This document shows positions 2,048 to 41,774 of a stretch of DNA of 64,000 nt, in pieces. The notes beneath the pieces were generated by a model that had not been told where the DNA came from, searched no databases, and worked only from the letters and a program-made list of their open reading frames with translations. Source of the DNA: Dromaius novaehollandiae (taxonomy: Eukaryota > Chordata > Aves > Casuariiformes > Dromaiidae). Each line of letters opens with the position of its first letter. The stretch's first letter is position 1. Both the position numbers and the translations under genes were made by a program. The stretch lies in NCBI RefSeq assembly GCF_036370855.1, contig NC_088102.1:66659601-66723600 (forward strand), written 5' to 3'.

Positions 2048-2848
2048 GTAAGTCCGATTACCTCCTCTTAGCTTCTACCTGTGTTTTGTGAAGCTGTTTT
2101 CTCAAGTAGATGTAGCTGCTAGTGACGAGCGTTGGCTTGCTAGTCCAAGAAAATGAGGTCTTCTCGGGTCTTCGAGCACATGGTGTTGTTTTTGGGCCCT
2201 CATAAAGAGCAGCCCCTTATGACTTGGCACTGAGGGTTTTTCCCCTGAAGACGTCTGCTGATCTCTGCTCCCCTGGGCAGGCACATCAGAAGGCTCTTCC
2301 AGCACGCAGGCCCCCCTTCAGGAGCCCAGCCTCAGGGCTGAGCAGCTTTTGCCAGTGTTGATACATCCAAGATGTGAGCTCGCTCTGCAGTCTCTAACGT
2401 TAAGCCTGGCAGAGGCCCTCTGCATGCAGTCACAGATCCTGACTGGAAAAGGCACCTGGATTTTAAGCAAATTTCGCAGAGTCTCCCCGTGATGGCACCG
2501 CCCCAGAGCTCTGAGCTGGGGGTGGGATGCAGGGCAGCTCCTGCTGCTGGTTTTCCCATACGCAGGCAACTGGGGCCCAGTCTGGCTAAGTGAGCAGGGA
2601 GGGCAGGACTGACAGGAGCATATCGGTGGATACAGACTGTTGGCTATAATTATTAGTCATTTACTATGACTTGCAAAGCCTGATGCATAAAGCTGTCCTG
2701 ACATTTCCCGCCAGATGATCTTCAGAGGGTCCATCTGCTTCTTTGGTCTCAGGTTTGTGCCAAAGGAGCTGAAGGGTGTGAGATGCCTGACGGCAACTTA
2801 ATTCTCCCTCTCAGGCCTCCCTGTCTCTCCTCTCCCTCCTACCCCCAG

Positions 2849-3052
2849 GTCTCGGCCCGGTTACCATGGCTCTCTGGATCCGATCCCTGCCTCTCCTAGC
2901 CCTTCTTGCTCTTTCTGGCCCTGGGACCAGCCAGGCAGCTGCCAACCAGCACCTCTGCGGCTCCCACTTGGTGGAGGCTCTCTACCTGGTGTGTGGGGAG
3001 CGGGGTTTCTTCTACTCCCCCAAAGCCCGGCGGGACGCTGAGCAGCCTCTGG
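2849..3052 (+). CDS. INS: INS exon 2: signal peptide, B chain, start of C-peptide
   Basis: The exon begins after acceptor CCCCCAG (AG at 2847-2848) with 17 bases of 5' UTR, then ATG at 2866. It encodes residues 1-62 and the first base of codon 63, ending at the donor GTAAGT (GT at 3053-3054). It holds the signal peptide, the whole 30-residue B chain, the RR convertase site and six C-peptide residues (DAEQPL). The frame read past 3052 without splicing ends soon in unrelated sequence, which supports this donor. Confidence 0.95.
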
Positions 3053-6000
3053 GTAAGTGCGGGCTCCCCAGCAGCCTGGCAAGGTGCCCTGCCAGCTCTT
3101 TCACTGTTCGGATGAGTTCTCTTCCAGCAGAAACTCACGTGCCATGTGCAGACACCTGGTGAAGATATTGCTCGGTCGTAACAAGCTGCTTCTCCCTCCA
3201 GCGTGGTCCATGACGAAAGAGGAGGCCCAGATATGCTAGAGGTGCCCTTCTGCACAGAGGGGAGGAGTGTGTGCAGCATAGGGACAGGGATTAATTACAG
3301 TAGTATGCTCCTTTTCTCTGGTGGCAACCAGGAGTCCAGCCACCGACTGTGACCACAGTTGTATAGTATGTGGTGTAAAAGGCAACGGCCTATCTTGGTC
3401 AGTGAGAGCAGTAATGTCCTCAATGGCAGATGCCAGGAATACCTTTAAAATACGAAAAGCACCATATTGCCAATGAAAAGCTCTTCAGGTTAAAAAGGCA
3501 GGTGGGAGGGCAGGCAGAGAAAGAGGATTTATGAGGCAGAAGGAATTGCCATTGAAAGCTTAAGCTTGTCTGCCGGTCTCTTGGAAACCATAGGCTGAAA
3601 ACAGCACCCATCTCAGCCTTGTGTGGCCATTGCATGGGCCTGGAAGTGATCATAGAAAATAAAGATGGAAAGAACTCAAGAAGCCCTCCTTCTGCTCCAG
3701 GGCAGGATCAGTTATCCCTGTATCGTTCCTGACCCATGCTTGTCTAGCGTGCTCTTTAAAACCTCCAGTGAGGAAGAGCCTCCTGCTTTCTGAAACTATC
3801 TGTTCCCATGCTCAGCTGACCTTCCTCTGGAAATGTTTCTCGCTAATAGCTAACCTGAATGGCCCTTGCTGTAAATTTTTCCTTGTGTTCTCCATAGTGG
3901 ACCTGGGGAAGGGTCTACTGCTTTCTTCTTTATAGTTTTCAAAATACTTGAAGACTGTTACCATGTCTAACTTCAATGTGCTCTCAGCTGAGCCCCCCCA
4001 ACTTCCCCAATCTGCCTTCTTAGGTCGTATTTTCTAAATCTCTGTCCATGAAAATCATTCTCAACATGGTCCACATCTTTTTTGAACTGTGGTGCCTGGA
4101 GAAGCGCACAGGACTCCAGCTGAGGCCTTACCGCCAAGTAGAGTGAAGAAGAAACTGGAAGAATGAAGTCACATGTTTTTCACCCAGTTTTCCTGCCTAT
4201 GCATGTGGTTTGCCTTTTTCAAAGCAGCACTGCCCTGCTGACTGGCAATGATTGTTGTTTCCCTGGGGTCCTTTGGCCCTCCCTTCCGATGTACCAGTGG
4301 TCCTTGAAGCACTGCCCATCCTTTGTCCTGTGTGCAGGACTGGCATCTTACCCAACTCTTGCTGAATAGCATCCTATCTTTTCAGAGTGTTTCTGTAGTT
4401 TGCCAAGGTAATATCGAGTTCTGATCTTGCCCTTCAGCAGCCTTGCAGCCCCCTACAGCTTTATACTGTCTCTCATTTCACGGCGGTAAATGGATTAGCT
4501 TGAGTATGTTGTGATGGAGTCAGTGTCCATCTCACCCTTTTTGTGTATAGCAGGTTAAGAAAACAAAAAGCTGACATTCTGCAAAACCAAAAGAGATGAG
4601 GTGGGTTTGTTTGTTTATTTTGCTTTTTTTTTAGTGGAGCAGTTGTTTTTGTAAATCAGTAGCAAGGAAAATGCAATTTTGCCAGGACAGAGATACTCTG
4701 CTCTCTGTCACCTGCCCTGCCCCCTGATGAACTAGACTGCGGGCCACCAAGGCAGGCGTTGCTGTCTAATCCCGCTCTGGAAGCTACTGGCTTCCAAACA
4801 ACTCTGGAGATTTCTGAACTTGTCCTAAATGCTTTATCTGAACTTTTTGTTTCTGGGAAATGGCATGTCCTGTGCTTCTCGGTTTCAGTTGTGATTGAGT
4901 CTGAACTCCAGAGGAGGTGCAAGCAGCGAGCAAATGTCTTCTATCAACAGTTAAATTTCAAAATTGGAAACAGATTTGTGGAAAAGAAACATAACAGTAA
5001 AAAACACAACTTCAGTGCTCTGTATCTGACGCTAATCTCCTTCCTGAGCTGTCACTTAGGAATGGTGTTTGGGGCATGGTGCCATACAGGGACCTATTGG
5101 AAATGCTGCCTTTCCATGGCTTGGTGAGCATCAGCTGGTGTAGGTGCAGGGACATCAGAGGTGGGAGCCAGAGGGCAAGAGCATTGCACAGGGACCACCA
5201 CCTTCCTTATGACGGGATGATCCTCAGACTGATTCCTGTGCCACCGCATCCTCTCCCTGGAGGCAGAGGAGTTCTCCACCAGCTGCATCCACCCACCACC
5301 AATAGCCACGTCCCCTACCCGGCTATCTCTTGGAAAAGCTGCTTTTACCGAACGCTTATAGGAACAGGGAAATCGGAAGACATAGAGAGACAGAACCTGT
5401 TTTTGTTTCATGACACACAATAGCGAGCTGTGTAAGGTCTCAGGCTCAAAATATTGCTTATGGTAACTGAAAATGCTCTGTGGCAAACTGAAGTCTTTTA
5501 CCCTTTTACTTCATCGTCCCCTGCAAAAGCCGGGGAGGCAGGATTCAGAGGGAAACGTGGCCTGCAACCCCCTCTGTGCTGAATCCCTGCCCCAGGTTCC
5601 AGCACTTAGTGTCTGAATGCGAATGTAGGTGGGATGAGGCGTTTTGGACAGCTGCCTTTGAACACTGTGTTTCCCATTCATATCCAGACACAGCCAGGAC
5701 CTGCAGTGCTCAAGCTGTAACGCAAGGATGATGTCTCTCTTGGGAGATGGGTACTCGCAGTTCCCCTTGGCTTCACGTCCTCTATAAATTCAGCAAGCAC
5801 ACTCCCTCCTCCATCTTCTGACTTGCTAATGGAGATTTTGAATAGCACCAGGCGCAGAAGAGACCCTCACCAAGTCCCACTCGTTTTAACCCTCTAGCTC
5901 AAAGATGATTATATCACCTTTATATCACCTACTCTGACTACAATACAGCTGTCCCACCCATCCTTCTCCCACCAAATAGCGGGTTCATTTGTGTCTGTAT

Positions 6001-7565
6001 ATGCATATACATCCATACATGTATGTGACTGGCCTGTGAAATAGTCTTAGAGGTCTTAGGAAGGTGAAGCAAGATAATGTCATAGAAGATAAGTAGCTGG
6101 TTTGCTGTGATTTTTTCTGAAAGGCCACATGGGCTATTTGATTTGTTTTTGATGTTACTGAAGACAATCACACATGGGTTTAAAGCTTTTTTTATCCAAT
6201 TCTCTAAATATTGTAGGAAGAATTTCATTAAGGCCAACCAATTTGAAAGATCTAAGAACTTTCTAGCTCTTTTTCCAGTATTTCAGCCTGAGCTAATACC
6301 TCTCTGTCACATGAGCTGGTTGTACTTACTATCTTCTCCCAGCTGACCTGAAGGATGAAGATGAGTAAATCATGAAATTTCCACTAGATATATCCTCCTC
6401 CATGAAATGTTGGAATAAATCTTTTCTAAGTTTTCCTCCCAGCACACTAACACAATGATTTCTTGTCACTCTTGGGTCTTGCTCATTACATTATGCTTTG
6501 GGGGCTTTGGGACTTTGCATCTTGTGCTATACTTTTATACTGCCCTAGAAACCGCATCTTATCCTCGCTTTCCATGCACTTTCTTTTTATATTGAAGTCA
6601 CTGAAGACCTCCTGATTTAGCCATAGAGCCCTCCCAAGCCCTGGAACAACTGTGGCTGTCAGGGGTTCTTTTCTTCCTGCAGGAAAATCACAGCTTTATT
6701 TTCTGTGTTTTCAGCGGGCAACTAAAACCTGAATGGTTTTCTTGACAAGTTTTCAAGTTCCCATCAGTAAATGACACATTTTGTTGAGTTTTGTGTCCAA
6801 ATACCCCAGTTTAGCGTTCCTTTTACAACTTGTCCCCAGCTGTGAGCACGGACACACACAAACACTTCTGCAATCGGCCCGAGGCTGCATCCCAGCAGCG
6901 AGCAGGAGCAGGCTGTTCAGAACCAGCTGGGAAACGCGTCCAGCCCTGGGACGAACCCTTCCCTGCGGTCCCACGGACGTTGCCACTGTTTGCTCCGGCT
7001 TCCAGGAGAACGGCTCGCTGCCCAAGGGGGGCTGCACTTCCAAGCAGCTTATCCCTGCGGAGCAGGCAAGCCCATTTTATTTTATCATCTTATTTACTAG
7101 CTGCTCACTCCGGGGAGGGTACAGGGTTTCTTTTCCTCTCCACATGGCTGCCTCGGCAAAACCTCTGCGTCCCTTTGTCCCTCGCGCTGCCAATGTCCAC
7201 GCAGCTTGGCTGCTTTCACGCACCGTGGGATTCTTTCGGGAGAGGAGACACAGAGCCCGAAGGTGCTACAGACAGCATCGGCACGGGGAAATCTTTGCCA
7301 TGGTCCGCCCATTTTCCAGCCCACTCTGGCCAATCCTGGTGTCCATAAGGGGGGGGCCTCTGCAGAGCTCGACAGCAAGCGCTGATGTTGCATGGAGTCC
7401 ACAGCTTATCATTTTTTTTTCCTGGCAGTGAGCGGGCCATTGCGTGGCGAGGCTGAAGAGCTGCCGTTCCAGCAGGAGGAATACGAGAAAGTGAAGAGAG
7501 GAATTGTTGAGCAATGCTGCCATAACACGTGCTCCCTCTACCAACTGGAAAACTATTGCAACTAG
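2866..7565 (+). CDS. INS: preproinsulin (two coding exons)
   Basis: Joining 2866-3052 and 7429-7565 gives a 107-residue preproinsulin, the same length as in chicken. Insulin is the secreted pancreatic beta-cell hormone that lowers blood glucose through the insulin receptor. Residues 1-24 form a hydrophobic signal peptide ([16 protein letters not shown]...). B chain 25-54 ([11 protein letters not shown]..., ending SPKA), RR cleavage site 55-56, C-peptide 57-84, KR 85-86, and A chain 87-107 ([10 protein letters not shown]...YCN). All six cysteines are present: 31 and 43 in B; 92, 93, 97 and 106 in A. The start has a strong context (ACCATGG). The intron between the coding exons is phase 1 and splits a valine codon in the C-peptide, as in other vertebrate insulins. 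A and B chains match chicken as I recall it; the C-peptide differs at a few sites. IGF2 follows downstream in the same orientation. Confidence 0.97.
3649..4480 (-). mobile_element. old CR1-family LINE fragment in INS intron 2
   Basis: Read on the + strand this matches, from memory, the reverse complement of the 3' region of sauropsid CR1 LINEs. It opens with the ATCATAGAA terminal motif followed by a purine-rich GGAAAGAACTCAAG stretch. Then come segments resembling ctccagtgatggag, tacttgaagactgttaccatg and ggcgcccagaactgg...ctccagctgaggcct, in the expected order. It is heavily diverged with many indels and has no intact reading frame. Orientation is opposite to INS. The right edge is approximate; similarity fades at the CAGCTTTATACTGTC segment. 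Confidence 0.7.
5765..6240 (-). mobile_element. second CR1 fragment in INS intron 2, collinear with the first
   Basis: The similarity to antisense CR1 resumes here, at about the point in the element where the fragment ending near 4480 stops. Recognisable parts include a block like tataaattcagcaagcacactc, then gattttgaatagcaccaggc and ccaagtcccactcgt. Near 6100-6165 there is a stretch like gctggtttgctgtgattttt followed by tctgaaaggccacatgggct. It codes for part of a decayed reverse transcriptase on the minus strand. Edges are approximate and divergence is high. Confidence 0.55.
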
Positions 7566-28900: not shown

Positions 28901-30881
28901 TCCTCCGGTTCCTCCTTCGCAGGCCTTCATTTCAGGCAGTGCCAGGGGCTGCAGTTTGGGGTGGAGGCTGCTATTGTTTCAGCTATCGGCAGTGCAATGT
29001 TCCTTGCCACTGTATTAAATGAAGGGCGGAGGTCACACATCCCTAGTTTAAATGAGGTCTGGGCTGACCTTTAACGATATTACACTCGTGGATCCTCTCA
29101 TAACTCACGGAATAAACTCCCAGGGGCTTTTACCACCTCCCGCCTTTCTTTCTACTGTAAGGATGCCCGAGGCTTAATGTGCCTCTCTCCAATTTCGCTT
29201 TGATTTCTAATCCTATCCCCTTCTCCCCCTCCGCCCCCCTCAAGTACAGATACATTCACTCTTTAAAGGTGGGGGGAAAGAACCTGTTCCTTTTCTCCCC
29301 TGGTCGACAGCTCTTTCTTTTGTGTCTCCTTCTTTCCTTCCCCGCCCCCCTCCTCTTTCTTGACACAATGCGCTATTTATTTGCACTGAAGGATAACTAA
29401 GAAGCAATTAAAAGATCAAAAGGCACAAACACAAGTAGATCCAGTGGCAACTTGTGGGGTTTATTTTGCCGCTGCTGCGGCAGCTTCACCAAAACGCTGC
29501 CTTGTTTCCCCCCAGCCGGAGGGACACCTCTCTTACTGGGTCGCCTCTTCCTCAGCGCAGACTTTTTTATGATCGCTATTTTTCACCCCCATTGTTTGCT
29601 ATTGCAGTTGTTTACTGGAAAATCACTTGTTTTTCTCAGGGAGATTAACCCTCCAAGCTTTCTTTTGTCTACTCTCAGGAGGTCCTTGTGGTGAGCTGGG
29701 GGAAGGGAAGGGAGCTCCGCTCCTTCAGCTATCAACAGTAGCTTACAGCCCCGCGTCGCCCCCTCGCCTAGGCTGGGTCTTCTCCTGCGACGAGCCCTTG
29801 CTGGGAAAGGGCAGGGGCGGCTGCTCCTTGCTGGGGGGACAAGTCTTGCTGAGCGCTGCGCACCGGGCCGAGGGGAAGGACCCGCGACCGGGATTTTCTG
29901 GCTCCCGGGTGTCTAGGGGAAGCTCCGCAAGCCCAAGGCAGGCACCCATCGGGATGCCTCCCCTTGGAGCCCCAGTGCACACCGGCGGGACCCCTCCGGC
30001 GCTCAGCCTCCTTGGCAGCCAGGCCCCTGTCCACACGCTTGGGCACGGACGCGGGCGCCGAGGTCCGGTGCCGAGGGGGGGAGCGCGGCGCGCACGGAGG
30101 CGGCTTCTCGGCATCACCTCCGTGTGCCAGGCGTGGGGACCACTGCCCCGGCGCTGGGCTGTCTGCCGGACCCGGGACGCCACTGCCCTGGCAGCCGGTG
30201 GAGGTGACACGCAGCGACGCACGCCACAGGAGCAGAGTCCGAGGAACAACGCGGAGGACGGAAGGATGCTGAGGGGGGAAGGATGCCCAAAGCTTCCTCG
30301 GAAAGCGCCGGTCCTGCCCCTTCCTCACGTTTCCTGGGGCACGGCTGGGGCAGCTCCGACTGCTCGCGGAGGCACCGGGTCCCCCGTCCTCGAAATAATA
30401 ATAATAATAAAAAAAACCCAGCCGTGCAAAATAAAAGCGAGAACCCGGGGTCGCCTTGGGGCATATCGCAACCGGGGCCGCGGCACCCTCGCCCTGGCGG
30501 GCGGCTCCGCGCGTGTGCCCGCAGGAGGAGCCGCACCGCGCCGCGGGGCTGGGGGCACGGCCGGGGCTCCGCGCCCGCGGGGCGGCGAGCGGGGCCGGGC
30601 GAGGCGCGGGCGCTGCGCGCGGCTCGGCGGAGCGGCGGCGGCGGGGAAGGGTCGCTGCGGAGCCGCGGCGCCTTCGGGGGCGCCGGGTGCGGCGGCACCT
30701 GCGCGGGGGGGGGGCCGGGCGGCGCAGCCCCCTCCGGAGCGCGGCGGGCGAGCAGAGCGTGCGGCGGAAACTTTTTTCCCCCCTCTTCCCTCCCCGCGCT
30801 GGACTCCGGAGGGTTACGAGGGAGAAGGAGGGAGGGAAGGAGGGAGGGAAGAGAGAGGGGGTTAGATCGCTCTGCAACATT

Positions 30882-30949
30882 ATTGGCTGCGTGGCCGGGC
30901 TGGTGCTCGCCGGGGAAGTCAGAGCATGCCCATTGGGGGGGTATAAAAG
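30882..30949 (+). promoter_or_regulatory. IGF2: IGF2 core promoter: CCAAT boxes and TATA box
   Basis: TATAAAAG at 30942-30949 is a near-ideal TATA box. Two reversed CCAAT motifs lie upstream: ATTGG at 30882-30886 and CATTGG at 30931-30936. A C-rich and G-rich island surrounds them. Transcription should begin near 30972. The arrangement recalls the mammalian IGF2 P3 promoter, which is also TATA-containing and GC-rich; the equivalence is inferred. Confidence 0.7.
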
Positions 30950-30971
30950 GGGGGCAGCCGGAGCGCCCTGC

Positions 30972-31433
30972 CTGTCTCCTCGCTCGTGGGGCAGCCAGCC
31001 GGGAGCAGCGTGCGCCGAGGGAGCCGGCCCCTCCAGCCCCGGCCAGGGCGACGCAGTCCACAAACACAACAGTGCGAGCCGCCCCGGGGGCAGCCACAGC
31101 AGCAGGAGAGAAAGGCAAAAAAAAAAAAAAAAAAAGGAAAAAAACAGAAAAAAAAGGAAAAACAAAAAAGCAAGCAAGCAGGCGCGCGCTCGCTGGCCCT
31201 CCGGCGCGGCGACGTACCCCAGCGTAGCAAAATACCATCCTCGAGCCGGGCTGCGGCAGGCGCTTGCCACGGCCGCCGGGCCGGGCGCGCGGAGCCGAGC
31301 GGAGCGGAGCGCCGGCGCGCAGGCAGCGCAGCGCAGCGGCATGCCAGGCGCCGCGGCGGGCGCGGGGGAGCGCGGGGGGCCGCCCGCCTGCCCGCGCGGC
31401 GCCGCGCACCCGGCGCAGAGCGGCGGCGCCAAG
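30972..31433 (+). other. IGF2: IGF2 leader exon (5' UTR)
   Basis: The leader runs about 460 bases from the inferred start, 30 bases after the TATA box, to a strong donor AAG/GTAAGC with GT at 31434-31435. It contains a 19-base A run at 31117-31135 followed by further A-rich sequence to about 31170. The first ATG in the whole leader is at 31341. No in-frame stop follows it before the donor. The next exon on the + strand with a good acceptor and known IGF2 coding sequence starts at 36365, so the intron is 4931 bases unless small noncoding exons intervene. Confidence 0.65.
31341..31433 (+). CDS. IGF2: possible N-terminal extension of the IGF2 precursor
   Basis: From ATG 31341, which is the first AUG in the leader, 31 codons run open to the donor at 31433 in phase 0. 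Exon 36365 adds three codons (VPR) and then the canonical IGF2 Met, all in the same frame. The result would be 34 extra residues rich in Ala, Gly, Pro and Arg, beginning MPGAAAGAGERGG and ending SGGAKVPR, ahead of the signal peptide. The AUG context has G at -3 and C at +4, which is moderate. Human IGF2 also has N-terminally extended isoforms, but from a different exon and sequence. Whether this one is translated is not known from sequence alone; the frame may be open simply because the DNA is very GC-rich. Confidence 0.4.
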
Positions 31434-34400
31434 GTAAGCAGCGCGCTGCGCGCCCCGCGCAACGCCGGCGGGCCGCGGGCGATGCGGGCGGGCTGCCCCG
31501 CCGCCGGGGCGGGCGAGGGGCCGCGCTGCCCGCGCGGGGCGCTAGAGGGACCCCGAGAGCCGGGCTCGGCCGCGGGGCCGCGCGGAGCGGAGCGGCGCGG
31601 AGCGGAGCGGCGCGGCGCGGCGCGGCGGGTCTCCGCGGAGCGGCTCGGGGAGCGCGGAGCAGCCGGTGGCCGCGGGCGGCGTGCGGGGCGCCGCCAAGCT
31701 CCGGTTCGCAAAGCGCCGCAGCGCGCCGGGTCTCGGCGGGGTGGAAATCCAGAGAGGAAAAACAAGAAAGCGACGCCAAAATGGAGCGAGAGTTAGCGGC
31801 TGGCGTGCAGCCTTCGACTCCGGGCGATTTTTCCCCCCTCCTTCCTTCCCAATTGCTTTTCCCTACAGTGATTGTTTTAAGAGCGCGACTTGGAAGGGCT
31901 CTGCCGAGCGGTAGGGAATTGGGGCACATGAGGAAACTCGGATTTAGCGTAACTGTACCAGCAGATGTGGCCGCCTTGCCTCGAGCCAGCGGTACGCTAG
32001 CGGGGTTTCTGATACGCCAGGGCTCGCTCCGGCAGCGTGGAGCGATCAAGTGCAAAAATAAGGTTTGCGTGGGTGGTTTTAAAGAGACACCTTGGGAGAA
32101 CCGCTGCTTTCAACCCGTAGGTTGCGACTTCCTATGCAAAGTCTGTAGTTTTCTTCCACACGCCAGGATGTGCCTGGGAGGCCGAGGCCTGGTTCTCTTT
32201 GTTTTTATTTGTTGTCAGGTTGTGTGTGCGTGCGCGTGTGTGGTTTTTCTTCCACTGAGCAGGGTTCAGCGTGTTGGGGTTTTTTTTCCCCCTCCTCTTG
32301 GCTTGATTTAGAGTGGAGTTGAGGAGTCTGGGTCGTGGGTTTTGTAAGGGTGACTTTGTGCTGAGGACATCTGGAGAAATAAAACTGACTGACACCTCTG
32401 ATTTGAGCTTCACTGAACTGTTTTGGACCCAACTTGACAATTTTGGTGGGGGTGAATGGGTCAGGGCCGTAAATCTTGCTCCGGGTTGTCGACACCCACA
32501 CAAGCTCGCTCAGCCTTTCAAAGGGGCTATCCCCGCTCCTGTGAAAATTCATTAAGGGATAAAAGATTTGACACCGCAGGTCCCCTCCCACCGCTGAATG
32601 AAACTGCAGAGCCAAAATGTGCGTGTGTGTCCCGGCGCTTTTCTCCTGACAGGTGATGCTTTTTGCAGCCCGGAGGTGTCGGTGCCTGGCCGCCCGTTGC
32701 CTCCGGCAGGCTTTGGATCAAGCCCCGCTGGAACAGCGGGGCGCTAGAAAGAGGGATTTCTGCCTTTCCTTTCTTTCTTAAATAAAGCAAACACAGCAGG
32801 TGAGGTCTTATTTTTAGAGGGCCCGAGACGTTGGTGCGTTTCCAGCGTTGCGTGCTAGCACCGTGAGCGGCCCCCCCTCTCCCTGCTCGTGTCCTGGGAC
32901 TGACCTCCCCGAGCCCGGGGACGGGGCTCGTCGGTGCTTTCACAGGCTTCCGCGTCTGCGGGGCGAAGCGGCGCTGGCTTCGACCCGGGGGTCGGGAAAG
33001 GTGGGGGGATCGGGGCAGAAATATGCCTGGTGGTTGTAACCTGGCTCTGAAAGGGTTAAGTCTGCTCTGCCAAGACATAAAGTAAGTTCAACGTGTTGTG
33101 GGAATATCACTTGCCAGTAAACTCCAGTCACCACAATTTCTGATTTAACAGCTTAACTTGCTGTTAACTTTTCCTGATATACTCCAGGTTTTGGACGTGA
33201 ACGCAGAAAGGAGAGAGGAACAATAAAGAAAGGAGTTAAGTGAGGCTACTAAAATGGACTTAAATCCCTTCCCTGGGTCTTGCCAGCTGTCTTTAGAAGA
33301 GTTAAGCAAGATTGCATTTCCTTTTTTTTCTGCCATAAATCAAATGTTTCTGGGCTGCATACCAAAATTTGTGCAATACGCGCTTGCTCCCCAGCGGGGT
33401 GAGTAAATGGTACTGAATACCCCATTCACCTTTCCGAGCTTGATTTTTCCACAGCTCCGGTCGCCCTCGGTGCAGGACCCAGGCGCAGGGCGCGCTCCCC
33501 GGCTGGCGGGAGCCGCGGCGAGGAGGCGCGAAGGCGCCTTGCTCCGCCTGGGAAAGGTGATCCCCGGGACAGGGCTGAGCTGGGGAGGAACAGGGAAGAC
33601 AAAAAAGCGAGGGCTAAAAATAGAAGCAGTATTGCCAACCTCAGCCGTATAAATGTCACGCGAGCCAGGTGCCAAGAAGCAGGAGACTTTTATTTTTTTC
33701 AAGCCTCGCGATTAAAGCCAAGCAGGAGAAAAGCAAAACAACCCCCTCGTCCTGGGTCGGTCTCGTTTGCCTGGCAGCTCGACGGAGCCCCGCTACCTCT
33801 GTCCAAGGTCCGGCCCGGTGGCCCGCGAGGGATGGCTGCCCGCCCCTATCACCGCGATATTCGGGGTTTTCTCGCTAGCCTGGCGGGCAGCATCCCTGCC
33901 ACCATCCCTCGCTGCACCGTACCGTGGCATCCCGCCCCTTGGGCGTGCCGTGCCCCAAAATTCGCGTGTGGCCCGCTCGGGGGTATCTCGCAGGTAGATG
34001 CTGGAGTGCTGAAACTTCCACCTCCCTGGCTGGGATGGGGCTCCGAAAGTTTGTTTTTCCCTCCTGCTTGCTTCGGGCTGACAACTTCTTGCCTCGCTGC
34101 CGTTAAAACTGCGCTGCTCCGCAAAGAGCAAGAGTCGCCTGGGCCGTCCAAATCCAAATTTTGCAGACTGGGCCATCTGTCAATTCCCTCCTACGTTGTT
34201 CTGTTCATATTAAATTGTAATGAAGGCCAGACTGAAGGAGGAATTAGGTCAGACAGGAGGTTTAGTATCCGTTTTTCGGGAGATGTTGCCCAAGAGAGGC
34301 ACCGTGGTTTGGTTGGCTCGGCGCAGGCCTGGATGCAAGGGATGCCTGAGCAGTCCTCGGAGATTTGGCAACCGGGCCTTTTAGCACATCGCGGCCCCTT

Positions 34401-36364
34401 GGCCTCCGGCTCCTCAGCAGCTGGACAGAAATCGCCGATCCAGCTGATTGTGCAGCAAACCGTCGAAAAACCCTGCAGCAGCCTCACACGGGAGGGTGGC
34501 TCTTCCCTGCGACTAGGGAACTCGTCCTGCATCGCCGCTCGGACGCCGCACCGGGTCTGATCTGCCGTTGGGAAGAATTCACCTCCGGGCACCTCTTCCG
34601 CCGCCGCGGGCCAAGACCAGCCCCGGAGGGACCAGCCTCCCCCGGGGAGGCAGCGGATCTGCCTCCCGCCTGGCGCGTTCGACCAGCTCGTGCCGGGGGG
34701 GCAATGGCGGGCAGTGCCGCCCCGGCAGCCGTGGTTTGGAAGGAGGAAGCTCTTGTGAGCTTGTGCCTGGGTGGAGAAAGGGGCTTTTTGGCACCTGGTG
34801 TTTTCCAAGGACTGGAAGTTGTTCTCCGCCGTATCAGGTCTCCCCCAGCACCAGCTATCGCCCCGCTGACACAGCCCGTCTCCTCCCGGGGGGCCGGCGC
34901 GGGCTGGGGGCCGCCGGCAATCAGGCCGCTTGTTAAGCGCGCCGCTCGGAGCCAGCCGGAGCTTAATTGGGAACGGGGGAGTATTCAGGTGTCCTGGAGC
35001 CCCACGTTGGCCGCCGGTGCCGCGGGCGCTGCCTGTGCCTCGGGGACGCCGGCGGCCCGCAGCCACCCTTAAAAAAAAAAATAGAGGAAGGGGGAGAAAG
35101 AAAAGGCGAAGGGAGAGGGATAATTGCTGGCTTGTCACGGGGCGAGCGCGTCGCTGACGTTGCCACGCGAGGGGCAGGGCTGCGGCAGCGCAGGTGATGC
35201 CAGGAGGACTGGGGAATACCCACGGGCCGTCTCGCGAAGAAAAGGTCAGGATTGCAGGCGGCAAACCGCTGCGGCTTGGCCGCGTGGTGAAATCACAGCC
35301 CGCAGAGCGCCGTGGCGGAGGGACCGATGCTGCTGCAAAAGCCCCCGCGCGCTGGTTGCTGCAGGGCTGCTGCGTCGCCTGCGCAGGGTCCTGGGGGCGT
35401 TTCGGGGCCTGGTGCCGGCTGAGCCGCCTTTTTGCCTCCCCTCTGCACCGAGCTACTGAGCGCTCGCAAGCGCAGCGCCTTTACGGGCGACGGCTTGGGC
35501 TACGCGCTGCCGAAACGCGGCGGCGAGGGCGGCTTCCTCGCTGCCCCCCCGGGGGACCTGAGCTACTTTGGCGGCTCCGCTGCAGCCTTCCCCGGTGACC
35601 TTGGGCGAGTGATTTAATCTGCCCGGGGCGGCAGCTCCAGCTCGGAGCAGGAGGCGCAGCGCCGCGGCGTCCCGGGGGCCGGGGGCACGGCCGAGACCGC
35701 CCTCGAGCCGCTCGGTGCTGGTGAGAGCTGGATGCAGAGCGCCGTGTCTCGGCCGAGGGTGGAGGTTTGCTGGAGATTAGGCGGGGAAAGCTTGGCGTTA
35801 TTTGGCAGATATGTGGCCCTCCTCAGGGTGCGCTTCCCCGGGACCCGTCCGCCCCGAGGGATGGCTTTCCCATCCCAAACCCACTCGGCGACAGCTGGGC
35901 TCCCGGGATTCCCGCGCCTGAGCTGGGCAGGTCCGAGCTTTCCTCAAAAGCAGCTCCGGCACGGGCTGAAGCGTCATTTCTTCCTGCTTTTGGGAAGCAC
36001 GCTTGCAAACTTCTCATCAAAGCGATTCCAGAATGAAGCAAACCACATCCTGATAACCATTTACGTGATTTCCCCATTAAAAAAAAGAAAAAAGATGCTG
36101 TTTAAAGAGCAGGGGGATAGAAGCCTTTCGCAGTGGGATTTTCCAATGGAAAACCGCTCCGATGCAAACCTCGTCCGCCTCGAGGCAGCCCGTCGCCCGG
36201 GCAGCTGAGCGGCGGGGCTGAACCTTGCCTGCAGAAATCAGTCTGCAGCATCCGAAACCCTTTTGGGGGGAAAACGCGGGGGGACGCGTCGCCGGCCGCC
36301 CGGGAGAGGAGGAGGCGAGGGGGGGGGCACGTGCCCGCGTCTAACGCTCTGGCTTCGCCCGCAG
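31434..36364 (+). other. IGF2: IGF2 intron between leader and first coding exon
   Basis: This 4.9 kb interval starts with GTAAGC and ends with CGCCCGCAG. It is GC-rich in its last 2 kb (34.55-35.75 kb) and holds the candidate second promoter at 33.6 kb. No other coding exon is recognisable. Many long open frames exist on both strands because of base composition. Confidence 0.6.
33614..33654 (+). promoter_or_regulatory. IGF2: candidate second IGF2 promoter: MEF2 site and TATA box
   Basis: CTAAAAATAG at 33614-33623 fits the MEF2 consensus exactly, and TATAAAT at 33648-33654 follows 25 bases later. Both lie in the first IGF2 intron, about 2.7 kb upstream of the first coding exon. Mammalian IGF2 has a further promoter (P4 in human) downstream of P3, so position is suggestive. 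The best visible downstream donor is CAG/GTAGAT at 33993/33994, which is only fair. A start near 33680 would give an alternative leader. Confidence 0.35.
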
Positions 36365-36527
36365 GTGCCGAGGATGCGCGCGGCGAGGCGGCTGCTGCTG
36401 CTGCTGCTGGCCTTCCTGGCCTCCGCCCTGGACGCCGCCGCCGCCTACGGCACCGCCGAGACCCTCTGCGGCGGCGAGCTCGTCGACACGCTGCAGTTCG
36501 TCTGCGGGGACCGGGGCTTCTACTTCA
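36365..36527 (+). CDS. IGF2: IGF2 first coding exon: signal peptide and B domain
   Basis: The exon begins after CGCCCGCAG with nine bases (GTGCCGAGG) and the ATG at 36374. It encodes residues 1-51 and the first base of the Ser52 codon. It ends at the donor GTGAGT, with GT at 36528-36529. Reading through the donor meets a stop at once (GAG TAG), which supports splicing here. The signal peptide has a run of six leucines. Confidence 0.95.
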
Positions 36528-39500
36528 GTGAGTAGCCGGCGCGGGGGCCGGGCGAGGCCGGGGACGTTCTAGGGAGCGAGGCGGGGAGGCCGGACCCTGC
36601 GTGTGGTGCTTATAGAAACGCCAGGTATCGCTGGGAAGCGCTGCTGTGTTTTAGGCCAACCCGTGATGCAGGCGAGTGAGCAGCAGCGATGTATCCAGCC
36701 AGCTCGGTGCTAGCAAAAGCTTGTTTTTAAAAACTCCCAGGCGACGTGTAGGCGCTGTATCCACGGATATCCCAGGTGCTGCTCCCAGGGACCATCCCAC
36801 TTTGGGAGCACCTGGGCCGGGCAGCTCTGCTCTCCCCGTCGGGGCAGGCTTGGCTGTGTCCGTAGCTCCTCGGCGCCTCTCCAAGCCCTCCTGGATGTAC
36901 TGGATGTCTTGGATGGGGCCAAGCTGCCTGGATGTGAACCTGTTGCTAGTGATGCCTCATCCTTTCACAGCACGGGCCGTGCCAAAGGATGTCGTCGTTG
37001 CCTCGCGCGTGCGGGACTGCACGAGGTCGGGCTTTCCGTGGGCACGCAGCACCCGGGAGCTGCGTTGCAATGGGCGGGAGGGCTAAGGCAGTGGCGGCGG
37101 ACGCTGAGCAGTCCCCAACCAGGTGACAGCGGCAGCTCGCCGGGCTTTGGGGTGCCCTGGCCTGGCGTTGCAGTGCGGGGCGCTGCTCCTGCCCTTCTGC
37201 GTCTTGCTGACCTATAGGTAACCAGGGGAAGGGGGCACGGCCAGGCGGCGGGGAGGGGACGTAGGGGCGAGCTGTGCCTGCTGCCGTGCATGTGGCCCTC
37301 GCGCCTCCGCTCTGACTGTGCGAGAATTAGTTAGCTTGGAAAGCTGCTTTCGAGGAATGGGGCGAGTCGTTTTTTTGGAGACACCGGCGTCTGGAGCCGT
37401 TCTCCCTCGGAGGGAAGGGTTTGCTGCCGAGCAGGGAAAGACCCCGGGTACCAGTTTCAGACGGGGATGCTCAGCCGGTGCGGACTGGCGTCATGCGAGG
37501 TCTGGCGTGCCGGGGGGCTGCTGCCTGGGCCCGCCGTTTCGGAAAGGTGCTTGGAGCACCTCCCGCCCTCGGTTGGCTTCGGGCAAGGGTTTGCACACGC
37601 GCCGCTCTTCCTCCGCTCCTCTTCCGCCTCCCGCGTCTCCGTCTGCCGGCAGCCGGGAGGAGAGCTCCTGCCTGGGACTCGCACCTCTCCCTCCCGCCTA
37701 TATATAGCGGAGCGCCCGTGTCCCTGCCTTCAGCTCCCCTCCCCTCCTCCCGCTCTCGGGGGATGAAAGGGAACGGGGCTTTTGTTTTGCGGACAGACTG
37801 ACCTCCCTTCACCTCGAATAACCCTGCCTTCCAGGCCAAAATGAAAACACTTCTGCAGGCCGACGAGGAGTTTTGTGCCAAGTGGCCAATCTGGTGTTTG
37901 CAGGGGGATTCATCTTTTTTTTCTTTTTTTTTCCTCTCCGGTCCCCCTTCTCCTGTTTTCAGTCTTTCTGCTGAGTGCAGGTGCCTGGGGGCTGAAGCAA
38001 AGCCACCCCAAACCCCTGCTTTAACCCCTTCAGCATCTGGCTGTGCAAGGCTGAACAGATGTTTGGGCTCAAGCTCTGCTAGGTGAAGGCTGCAGACATC
38101 CCAAGCTCCTCTCTCTTTTTTCCCTTTATTGGTTGGTCAAAGCTGGGCTTAGTCTTAATTTTTAAACCCCCTTGGCTACCAGGATCTCCACACCCTGCCC
38201 CTACGGCCACATCCTCAGGTCTACAGGGCAAGTTCATGGCTCTCTGGTGGCTCGTGGGGACCTGTGTCCGCACCGAGACACTTGCACTAGCTATGGCCTG
38301 CTGGAAGGCCCAAGGCTTGCCTGCTTGTGAATTTGTGCCTTAAAACCGGGCCCAAATTTGCCAGGAGTACGCCTCAACCCACAGCCTGCTGAGAGCTGCT
38401 ACCCGAGGAGCAACCTGCTTCCAAAGAAGCAGCTGACACGGGCTGCTGCAGCCTGGTCCCGCGAGCGCCGGGGAGCCCTGCTTGCTGCAAAAGGCTTGTT
38501 GCAAGCAGCCGGCCGGTGATCGTGGAAAAAAGGAAAATCGTGAGAAAGCTCGCTGTCGGTTTTCTGCTGCCGAGGTGATTTAAATACCTAACTACTGTAT
38601 GTCCTTGTCACGGGAGGGCTTGCAAAAGCCGGCGTCCTAGCCTGAGGTGCTTCTGTGAGCACGCTGCAGTTTCTCGTGGGCGCGTGGCCGCTGCCGAGAT
38701 CCCGTTTCTGATCCTGCTGAGCTGGAGCATCTCCGCGTGGCTCTGGGCTGGCCCGCGGGTGACGGCGGGGATGTCCGTGGGTCCGTCTGCTCGCCCGGGG
38801 CACAAACCGCAGGTGTCTTTGGAAGAGTTAGGATTTGCAAATGTGAGGGATATCGAAGGCGGCTCCCAGCTTGGGATTCCCGGCATCGCCGGCGTTGCTC
38901 GGCGCCTTGCCGCGCGTCCCCTTTGAGCTGGTGGCCATGGGGCCCTGCTGGGCCGCGGGCCCGGGTGCGCTCCGAGGACGCCGGGGGAGCGGGAGGGAGC
39001 GGGCTGGGGACGCGCAGCGACGTCAGCTGTCAACAGAGCTGCGGCGTGCTCGGCCGCTTCGCCCCGCGGCTCCCCGGGGCCGGCGCTCCGGGGCGCAGGT
39101 GGAAGGATGCTCCGGGGCCGAGGGGCGAGGATGGGGCCGGGGAGGAGGAGGAGGAGGAGGAGGAGCGGCGGCGTCCGCCTTGTGCTCCGCGCACAGCGGC
39201 TCCCGTTTCCTCCTTCCCAACAGCTGATAAGAATTCAGCCCTGTGCCGCCGCTTGTGCTGACGGGGCACATTCCTGCGCGCCGCCGTCCCTCCGAATAAT
39301 ACTAGGAAAAAGCAGGGGGGCAGGCGCGGCCCGGGGGCACGGGGACAACGGCAGTGCTGCCGGCCGCGCACAAAGGGGCCCTTGTTGGTCCCCGCCGGGC
39401 CGCGGCGGCCCCGGGGGCTGTTTACACCCGAAGGCCCCTTCCACTCGGCTGGGCGCTCGCGGCCGTCCCCGAGCCAGGGGCACCGGCTGAGGCGGCCCCT

Positions 39501-41774
39501 TCCCCGGCTGCCCGGGGCTCCAGCCCTCCTTCCCCGGCAGCGGGACGGGGCGCGGGTCTCCCGGAGCGAGCGCGATTATTAGTTAAATAGGAGCTAAACC
39601 CTCGGCGGCGGCGCGAGAGCGAGATGCCGCACGTGGGCGAGGGCCGGGGGCTCCGACCCGCGGTCCCGCCTGCTGCAACCAGCCCTTGTCCCGGTCCGGT
39701 CAGCGGCGACGTTGCTGCTAGCTAGAAATTTCCCGGCCTCCGTTGCCCTTCGGCTGCTGTCCCGAGGTAGCTGTTTTTCCCCGAGTAACTGTCCCACGGG
39801 AGAGTGTCTTGGCATCTGGCGAGAGCCGCACGGACAGTTATGTAATCGGAAATCTGCCCCGCCGGGCGGTCGCCAGGGAGCCGGCGGCGAAGCCTTCCGC
39901 TCCTCCGGAGGAGGCCTCCAACCTTTCGAAGCCTCGGCTTCTCCCCAGACCACGCGTGTCGTCGCTGCCGCTCCGCGGGAGCGCGGGCGGGAGGGGGCCG
40001 CTTGCGTTTTCTCCGGTTTTTCCCTTCCAAACCCTACGTCTGCCCTTGGCTGGGCTCCTCCGGAGAGGGAAGCATCCTCGGACCTTGGCGGCTGGCCGGG
40101 CAGCGGGGCAGGGCGAATCGGAGGGAGGCCGCCGAGCGCTGCCGGGTGGATCCCCGCGCTGAAATCACCCGGCACTTTGCAACCCCGAGGCCTGAAATGC
40201 TGCCCCAGCCCCATGCGCGAGAAAAGCGCATCCTTTAATCCTTTAGTTGCAGGCCGTTTCATGTCTTTGGAAGTCTTCTTGTTTTGCATTAGAAATTCGA
40301 ATTTGCCCATTGCTTTATTTAAAGAGGAGAAAAAGGGGGGAAAAAAAAATTACCCAAGCCGTTCCTCTAGAGCACGTTGGCTTAATTAAATAGTGACACT
40401 TGCTTGTCGCTGCGTTGGCCACTTCTCCGCTGGCTTTCGCATCCTTCTGCAGGGAGGAGCGGGAGAGGAGCCCTTCTTAAAAGATTAAGTTTAATAGCTA
40501 TTTTTGGCGGGTGTGGGAGCGTGTTGTTGAGACTGTATTCTTCCCGCAGCTGTCTCAGAGCTGCCCCATCTGGTAAAATTTATCCGCGTTGCTTCGTTTC
40601 ACCTGCCTGAGCGTCAACATGAAAGGAGGAGGTTGGCGACTGCAAAGCCGCGCTGCTTCTTTCTAATAAAAGGCGCCTGCCAGGATCAACAGCGGAGACA
40701 TTCGCAGTAATCTCCGTCGCGTTCGCATCCCGACTCGGCTTCGGCTTGCTCGCTTCGACCGCCCCAGCTAGCTGAAGCCGCAAAGGCGGCTCTTGCTGGT
40801 GTCACTAATGAGGTGGAATAAACTGCGGTGGTAGGAAGTGCCTTTAATCGCAGTCGCGCTGGGAGCTCGGAAAGCCTCGCCGTGCAACGGAGGCGCTTGG
40901 CGAGCCGGTGTCCGCGGCGCGCTGCCGCGGACGAGGGATGCGGGGAGAGCGGGCGTCCCTCTCGGCGCGGGGTATCACGGCTGGGCCTCTGCCGTTGCAG
41001 GTAGGCCCGTGGGGCGAAATAACAGGAGGATCAACCGCGGCATCGTGGAGGAGTGCTGCTTTCGGAGCTGCGACCTGGCTCTCCTGGAAACCTACTGCGC
41101 CAAGTCCGTCAAGTCGGAGCGAGACCTCTCCGCCACGTCGCTCGTGGGGCTGCCGGCACTCAACAAGGTGAGCGGGGGCGGCGGGTCCCCGGAAGGGCTG
41201 GTCAGAAGAGAAAGAGAAGAGAACGGGGCCACGGGGAGAGGGGGATGCCTGTCCCTGAGACCCGTTCTTCTGCAGCAAAGCCAGGGTGAGGCGACCTCCC
41301 AGGGACGGAGATGCTTGAGCAGGGGGGTTGGAGCAGGTGCTCTCCAGCGGTCCCATCCCACCTCAGCCCTGCTGTGAAGCTGTGCTGAACGCCCGCACGA
41401 AGCACACGGGATGGGGCCACCGGAGATGGTCTAGGCTAGAAGAGGAGGAGAAATGAGCTCTCCCTGGGGCCAGGCGAGAACCACGAACCTCACGCCCCGC
41501 CTCGCAGGCTGATTTTTTCCCCTTGCCTCCGCAGGACAGCTTCCAAAAGCCTTCGCACGCCAAGTACTCCAAGTACGACGTGTGGCAGAAGAAGAGCTCG
41601 CAGCGGCTGCAGCGCGAGGTGCCGGGCATCCTGCGGGCCCGCCGGTACCGGTGGCAAGCGGAGGGGCTGCAAGCCTCCGAGGAAGCCAAGGCGCATCGCC
41701 CCCTCGTCGCCCTGCCCAGCCAGAGGCCCCCGGCGCCGCGGGCGCCCGCGGGGCCGCCGGGCCGCCAGAAATGA
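36374..41774 (+). CDS. IGF2: insulin-like growth factor II precursor (three coding exons)
   Basis: Joining 36374-36527, 41001-41167 and 41535-41774 gives a 186-residue precursor (chicken is 187). IGF2 is a secreted mitogen of fetal and post-hatch growth that signals through the IGF1 receptor and insulin receptor. Residues 1-24 are a Leu/Ala-rich signal peptide. Mature IGF2 is 25-91: B domain [20 protein letters not shown]..., C domain [12 protein letters not shown] (53-64), A domain [11 protein letters not shown]... (65-85) and D domain KSVKSE (86-91). All six cysteines are present: 32, 44, 70, 71, 75, 84. The E peptide, 92-186, includes the conserved [11 protein letters not shown] segment matching the end of mammalian preptin. 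Splice phases are 1 then 0, as in other IGF2 genes. The canonical start has A at -3. Confidence 0.97.
36528..41000 (+). other. IGF2: IGF2 intron between coding exons 1 and 2
   Basis: This is a 4473-base phase 1 intron from GTGAGT to CCGTTGCAG. It contains an isolated TATATATA at 37699-37706 in GC-rich surroundings and a CpG-rich block at 38.9-39.56 kb with a GGA-repeat stretch near 39145-39165. No conserved exon or repeat is seen. I did not find the miR-483 hairpin that eutherian IGF2 carries in an intron. Confidence 0.75.
38900..39570. promoter_or_regulatory. CpG-rich block inside IGF2 intron
   Basis: CpG is dense by eye across about 650 bases, including GGCCGCGGGCCCGGG-type strings and a GAG/GGA trinucleotide run at about 39144-39166. 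It is separated from the promoter island by several kilobases and may be an internal regulatory island or simply GC-biased DNA. Confidence 0.3.
41001..41167 (+). CDS. IGF2: IGF2 second coding exon: C, A, D domains and start of E
   Basis: The acceptor is CCGTTGCAG. The first two bases finish Ser52, then the exon encodes [19 protein letters not shown]... through ...[10 protein letters not shown] and ends at AAG/GTGAGC (GT at 41168-41169) in phase 0. It holds the C, A and D domains and the first 16 residues of the E peptide, matching avian IGF2 closely. Confidence 0.96.
41535..41774 (+). CDS. IGF2: IGF2 third coding exon: E peptide
   Basis: After acceptor CCTCCGCAG the exon encodes 79 residues, [18 protein letters not shown]... 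to ...PPGRQK, and stops at TGA 41772-41774. It carries most of the E peptide, which is removed during secretion. The conserved part is [18 protein letters not shown] and the [13 protein letters not shown] block; the Pro/Arg-rich tail [15 protein letters not shown] differs from chicken. Confidence 0.96.
   Translation, partial: DSFQKPSHAKYSKYDVWQKKSSQRLQREVPGILRARRYRWQAEGLQASEEAKAHRPLVALPSQRPPAPRAPAGPPGRQK

Follow-up and report, generated by a model that had tools for sequence, protein, structure and literature searches.

An in-frame upstream AUG in the G+C-rich IGF2 leader of Dromaius novaehollandiae is probably incidental

Introduction

Precursors of IGF2 with a lengthened N-terminus have been described in mammals. 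In human, PMC6599137 presents a 236-residue precursor whose signal region, predicted to span 80 residues, derives from exons 5 and 8; for this precursor, the same source states, primary biochemical support is lacking. The earlier note on the DNA described below had mentioned extended human isoforms from another exon. Long IGF2 forms are also predicted in 8 of 18 other mammals, apparently counting platypus (PMC6599137). Since the human long form is described yet unsupported, the feature belongs to a known kind that is unproven even there. With regard to the paralogue, IGF1 signal peptides are reported to vary with the transcription start in exon 1 (PMC7582825).

More broadly, a preprint has surveyed N-terminal extensions located before signal peptides (PMC11623489). 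Such extensions account for 13.6% of the 338 and 13.7% of the 1143 cases from ribosome profiling; in human proteomics they number 1/170, 0/51, 1/63 and 3/102, against about 13.8% expected. Its authors argue that extended signal peptides are usually unrecognised and that their products are degraded. Functional extended proteins are known elsewhere, namely C1QL (PMC11623489) and PTEN (PMC4892431), and the C1QL exception, with its conserved extension, indicates that a functional extension is possible in principle. In birds, PMC5702507 provides a 311-bp partial cDNA of Muscovy duck IGF2, and no N-terminally extended bird IGF2 was found in print among the matches listed from the open-access literature. 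In this work, we focus on the IGF2 leader in a window (the whole stretch of DNA analysed) of 64,000 nt from Dromaius novaehollandiae (NC_088102.1, 66,659,601-66,723,600, + strand; one sequence).

Organisation of the IGF2 Locus

The features of the gene and of its leader are collected in Table 1.

Table 1. Coordinates, within the window, of the IGF2 exons, promoter elements and leader features.
Feature	Position	Strand	Description
CCAAT box (ATTGG on +)	30882..30886	-	Pattern scan; second CCAAT box at 30932-30936
TATA box TATAAAA	30942..30948	+	Sequence pattern
IGF2 leader exon 1, predicted	30972..31433	+	462 nt, one ATG; start placed from the TATA box, donor scored
A-rich tract in leader	31117..31169	+	About 53 bases amid GC-rich leader sequence; the predicted fold leaves it unpaired
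Upstream AUG and 31 in-frame codons including Met (MPGAAAGAGERGGPPACPRGAAHPAQSGGAK)	31341..31433	+	Sequence
IGF2 exon 2	36365..36527	+	Val-Pro-Arg codons 36365-36373, canonical ATG 36374, signal peptide, start of B domain; Pfam Insulin and PDB IGF II matches
IGF2 exon 3	41001..41167	+	Remainder of mature IGF2, start of E peptide; chicken primer matches
IGF2 exon 4, coding part	41535..41774	+	Remainder of E peptide and stop; Pfam IGF2_C on the joined protein

Joining the exons from the canonical ATG yields a precursor of 186 residues, which is matched by the Pfam families Insulin (1.8e-15) and IGF2_C (E = 2.7e-29), and whose top PDB match is Insulin-like growth factor II. By Pfam, it combines the insulin/IGF B and A domains with an IGF2-type E peptide, as befits a member of IGF2. 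The position of INS agrees with this identification, as INS lies upstream on the same strand (+) with its B-chain motif at 2956 and its A-chain motif at 7500; Pfam Insulin also matches the INS frame 2791-3159. One Pfam scan gave no match in five of its six frames and another none in seven of its nine proteins, and Rfam gave 0 matches in the window at gathering scores. The INS and IGF2 sequences have an avian look. Two chicken IGF2 qPCR primers of PMC4957392 map to exon 3 with mismatches at 3/22 and 2/20 positions, and two chicken IGF2 promoter primers of the DNase assay in that paper have no convincing placement here (best mismatches 5/19 and 4/18). Chicken IGF2 is given as four exons (PMC12129614, Table 8), which fits one leader exon followed by three coding exons.

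Promoter and Splice Sites

Judging from the TATA box, transcription of IGF2 would start at about 30972. The donor AAG/GTAAGC at 31433 is the top GT in 30972-31700 (score 11.19, next 2.40) and ranks second of 230 GTs across 30972-36360. The acceptor at 36365 (CCCGCAG/GTG), which ranks 17th of 322 AGs, is weaker than the donor, but suits a coding exon; these ranks come from a simple score based on site frequencies. The two sites would be the ones joined in vivo.

Upstream of the leader, an ATG at 30926, 16 bases 5' of the TATA box, opens a six-codon frame (MPIGGV); it would be relevant only if transcription started 5' of it, in which case the first AUG would be a different one. The start computed for chicken, at -314 from the start codon (PMC12129614), was set aside, since a genomic count puts -314 inside the intron here. 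Further downstream, intron 2 of IGF2 has CpG-rich stretches within 38501-41000, preceded by TATATATAG near 37701; they could be an internal promoter or just a GC-rich intron.

The Upstream AUG and Its Base Composition

The earlier note had proposed that the leader contains no ATG 5' of 31341, and that 31 codons stay open from there to the donor and lead, with the frame unchanged, into Val-Pro-Arg and then the canonical Met, and the sequence bears this out. The ATG at 31341 is the only one in 30972-31433, and exon 2 opens with GTG CCG AGG ATG, so that its frame continues into the Met at 36374. Joining the exons gives, as had also been foreseen, a precursor of 220 residues instead of 186, the additional 34 forming an Ala/Gly/Pro/Arg-rich extension (one example of a tryptic peptide from it is GAAHPAQSGGAK). 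The locus thus has what a functional extended isoform would need in the first place, an upstream AUG in frame with a stop-free path up to the canonical start.

Such an isoform would also call for a frame more open than composition predicts, and neither the shuffles nor the six frames point to any excess. The extension (31341-31433) is 89% G+C and is stop-free in all six frames, and dinucleotide shuffling of its final 90 bases gave a sequence without a stop in 98.4% of 5,000 cases, which makes the caution expressed at the outset, that high GC renders stops rare, the main result of the analysis. Among 5,000 shuffled leaders, the first ATG was in frame in 25.9% and both in frame and open in 13.3%, while 21.2% had no ATG; if an ATG is present at the position of 31341, its chance of being in frame is about one in three. 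Given the G+C content, a first AUG in frame is roughly a chance-level outcome. G+C at codon positions 1/2/3 amounts to 0.87/0.84/0.97 in the extension, 0.87/0.81/0.90 and 0.84/0.84/0.97 in the flanking 93 bases on each side, and 0.67/0.52/0.92 in the IGF2 coding sequence; in this respect the extension resembles its flanks, unlike the coding sequence. A point against a purely compositional account is that high G+C at all codon positions is compatible with a disordered coding segment rich in Ala, Gly, Pro and Arg. The frame of 31341 is open over 30435-31796, from the promoter through the leader into the intron. Long stop-free frames run over this region on both strands (453 codons for 30435-31796 on the + strand and 674 codons for 29768-31792 on the - strand), and are best explained by G+C content; they call for care in gene prediction.

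A 5-base repeat (31298-31338) ends immediately 5' of the AUG, and a 9-base repeat (31352-31380) is located within the extension. A DNA search of the species' own genome (1.47-Gb assembly, 271 contigs) with the extension returned the extension itself and two partial matches (88% over 57 bases and 80% over 66), as expected of low-complexity GC-rich DNA. At the protein level, the extension matches no Pfam family, and the six PDB sequences that match the long form at E up to 1e-9 align from residue 41 onward only. With the N-terminal 86 residues of the long form as query, searches of viral and prokaryote contigs gave 62 and 592 pattern matches, respectively, 0 of them confirmed. Since openness follows from composition, the open frame is no longer an argument in itself, and translation from 31341 may occur all the same. 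The verdict against a functional extension rests on one sequence and its composition, real constraint being invisible in a single sequence.

Translation Initiation and RNA Structure

Under the scanning rules, the first AUG should be used, with leakage to the second one. The AUG at 31341 has a G at -3 and that at 36374 an A, and both have a C at +4. With a purine at -3 of both, these rules lead one to expect leaky scanning; as the first and only AUG of a 462-nt leader, and with G at -3, 31341 is predicted by scanning theory to be a genuine initiation site.

A predicted stem starts at the seventh base counted from the A of this AUG, and a fold placed just 3' of it might favour initiation there. 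The fold tested at 31341 is strong (-65.6 kcal/mol), yet within the range of shuffled sequences, 47 of 200 shuffles being as stable for the extension (z -0.80) and 66 of 100 for the leader (z 0.44). A special RNA element driving initiation at 31341 was dropped from consideration, since the folding is no stronger than that of shuffles. In other respects, the A-rich tract of the leader is located 3' of a CA-rich stretch, CAAACACAACA. IGF2BP proteins bind a human IGF2 leader, and the tract could be a protein-binding platform in the translational control of IGF2.

Fate of a Long Precursor and Alternative Readings

The extension is hydrophilic, contains Arg and has a net charge of +3. The mean hydropathy of the long form peaks at 2.41 in residues 41-55 and is negative in all 15-residue windows inside the extension. 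The hydrophobic signal core and the Ala-rich end ahead of the mature Ala-Tyr are intact in the long form, in which, judging from the alignment to 1igl_A (mature IGF II), mature IGF2 would start near residue 58. The signal recognition particle (SRP) may still read the core, yielding the same mature hormone; it is also plausible that targeting to the endoplasmic reticulum (ER) fails and that the long product is degraded. Neither outcome brings a new function of IGF2, and nothing in the analysis points to a longer IGF2 protein being produced or having any importance. The suggestion in the earlier note that the extension might alter secretion or send product elsewhere found no support, given a frame open by composition and a purine at -3 of both AUGs.

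We thus consider it probable that 31341 is an incidental in-frame upstream AUG without a separate function. The stretch would form the 3' end of the leader exon, rich in G+C, at the 5' end of a bird IGF2 gene. One AUG in it would by chance share the frame of the real start, and this frame stays open owing to the rarity of stop codons at 89% G+C. Since 31341 lies in an adequate context, some scanning ribosomes would probably initiate there, the others leaking through to the canonical AUG. The resulting 220-residue precursor would carry a hydrophilic, low-complexity tail of 34 residues ahead of an intact hydrophobic signal core. After targeting and cleavage at the usual position it would yield the identical mature IGF2; if targeting failed, it would be degraded. 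A separate function of the extension would not be expected.

Transcription may begin, or the first exon may lie, elsewhere than the TATA box suggests, in which case 31341 would be missing from most IGF2 mRNA or would not be its first AUG. This is compatible with an incidental AUG, so that the two are not exclusive, and we regard it as rather unlikely. It is favoured by the lack of a YYANWYY initiator in 30961-31010, and it is in line with the several promoters of mammalian IGF2 (PMC6599137, PMC3405008) and with CpG-rich DNA that extends over 30001-32000 and again from 34501 on; it has to contend with a TATA box about 30 bases 5' of the assumed start, accompanied by two CCAAT boxes, with a donor at 31433 that is by far the strongest in the leader, and with the four exons given for chicken (PMC12129614, Table 8).

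Long prepro-IGF2 might be made regularly, its 57-residue signal region being removed in the ER to give the same hormone, and the extension might have been kept as a means of tuning production or targeting efficiency, a role that long leaders may also have in IGF1. Internal signal sequences are able to direct translocation. A first AUG with a purine at -3, the preservation of the hydrophobic core and Ala-rich end before the mature Ala-Tyr, and a 195-residue PDB chain of IGF1 in which the matching segment starts at residue 34, some 25 residues further in than it does in canonical IGF2, all agree with such a role, which we nevertheless hold to be unlikely, extended signal peptides being usually unrecognised according to PMC11623489. 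Far less credible is a conserved, functional N-terminally extended isoform with another destination, such as the cytoplasm or nucleus: its geometry alone (a first AUG, in frame, with an Arg-containing tail of net charge +3) speaks for it, against a sequence that shows nothing past compositional expectation and an extension that matches no Pfam family. It is likewise highly improbable that this lineage makes a regular share of 220-residue IGF2 with an Arg-containing extension that slows or misdirects its ER targeting and so creates a second, non-secreted pool.

Comparison with Known Systems

An incidental AUG of this sort carries a caution, namely that GC-rich leader exons readily yield long in-frame extensions, which gene predictors may annotate as isoforms. 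Among described systems, the C1QL family shares with this locus an in-frame extension ahead of a signal peptide; in contrast, its start is non-AUG (ATT), it is conserved across vertebrates, and there is peptide evidence for C1QL4 (PMC11623489). The IGF1 precursor is that of a paralogue whose hydrophobic signal core also lies deeper in the precursor, the 195-residue chain with its segment from residue 34 indicating a long leader; it is, however, the product of another gene, and the IGF1 leader has no alignment to the bird extension. Platypus, an egg-laying species, likewise has a longer predicted IGF2 N-terminus, with an 88-residue predicted signal peptide, but this is a prediction only, its sequence is unrelated to that of other mammals, and the assembly is called poor by the authors (PMC6599137). 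The human 236-residue IGF2 resembles the present case in its in-frame upstream start, which lengthens the signal region ahead of the ordinary signal peptide, and in a junction that falls between whole codons (54 from exon 5 and 26 from exon 8 in human). It differs in arising from an alternatively spliced exon and in having 56 extra residues rather than 34, the two being likened by geometry. If conserved and made, the extended form described here would be a bird counterpart of the disputed long mammalian IGF2, and would offer a second case for testing precursor secretion.
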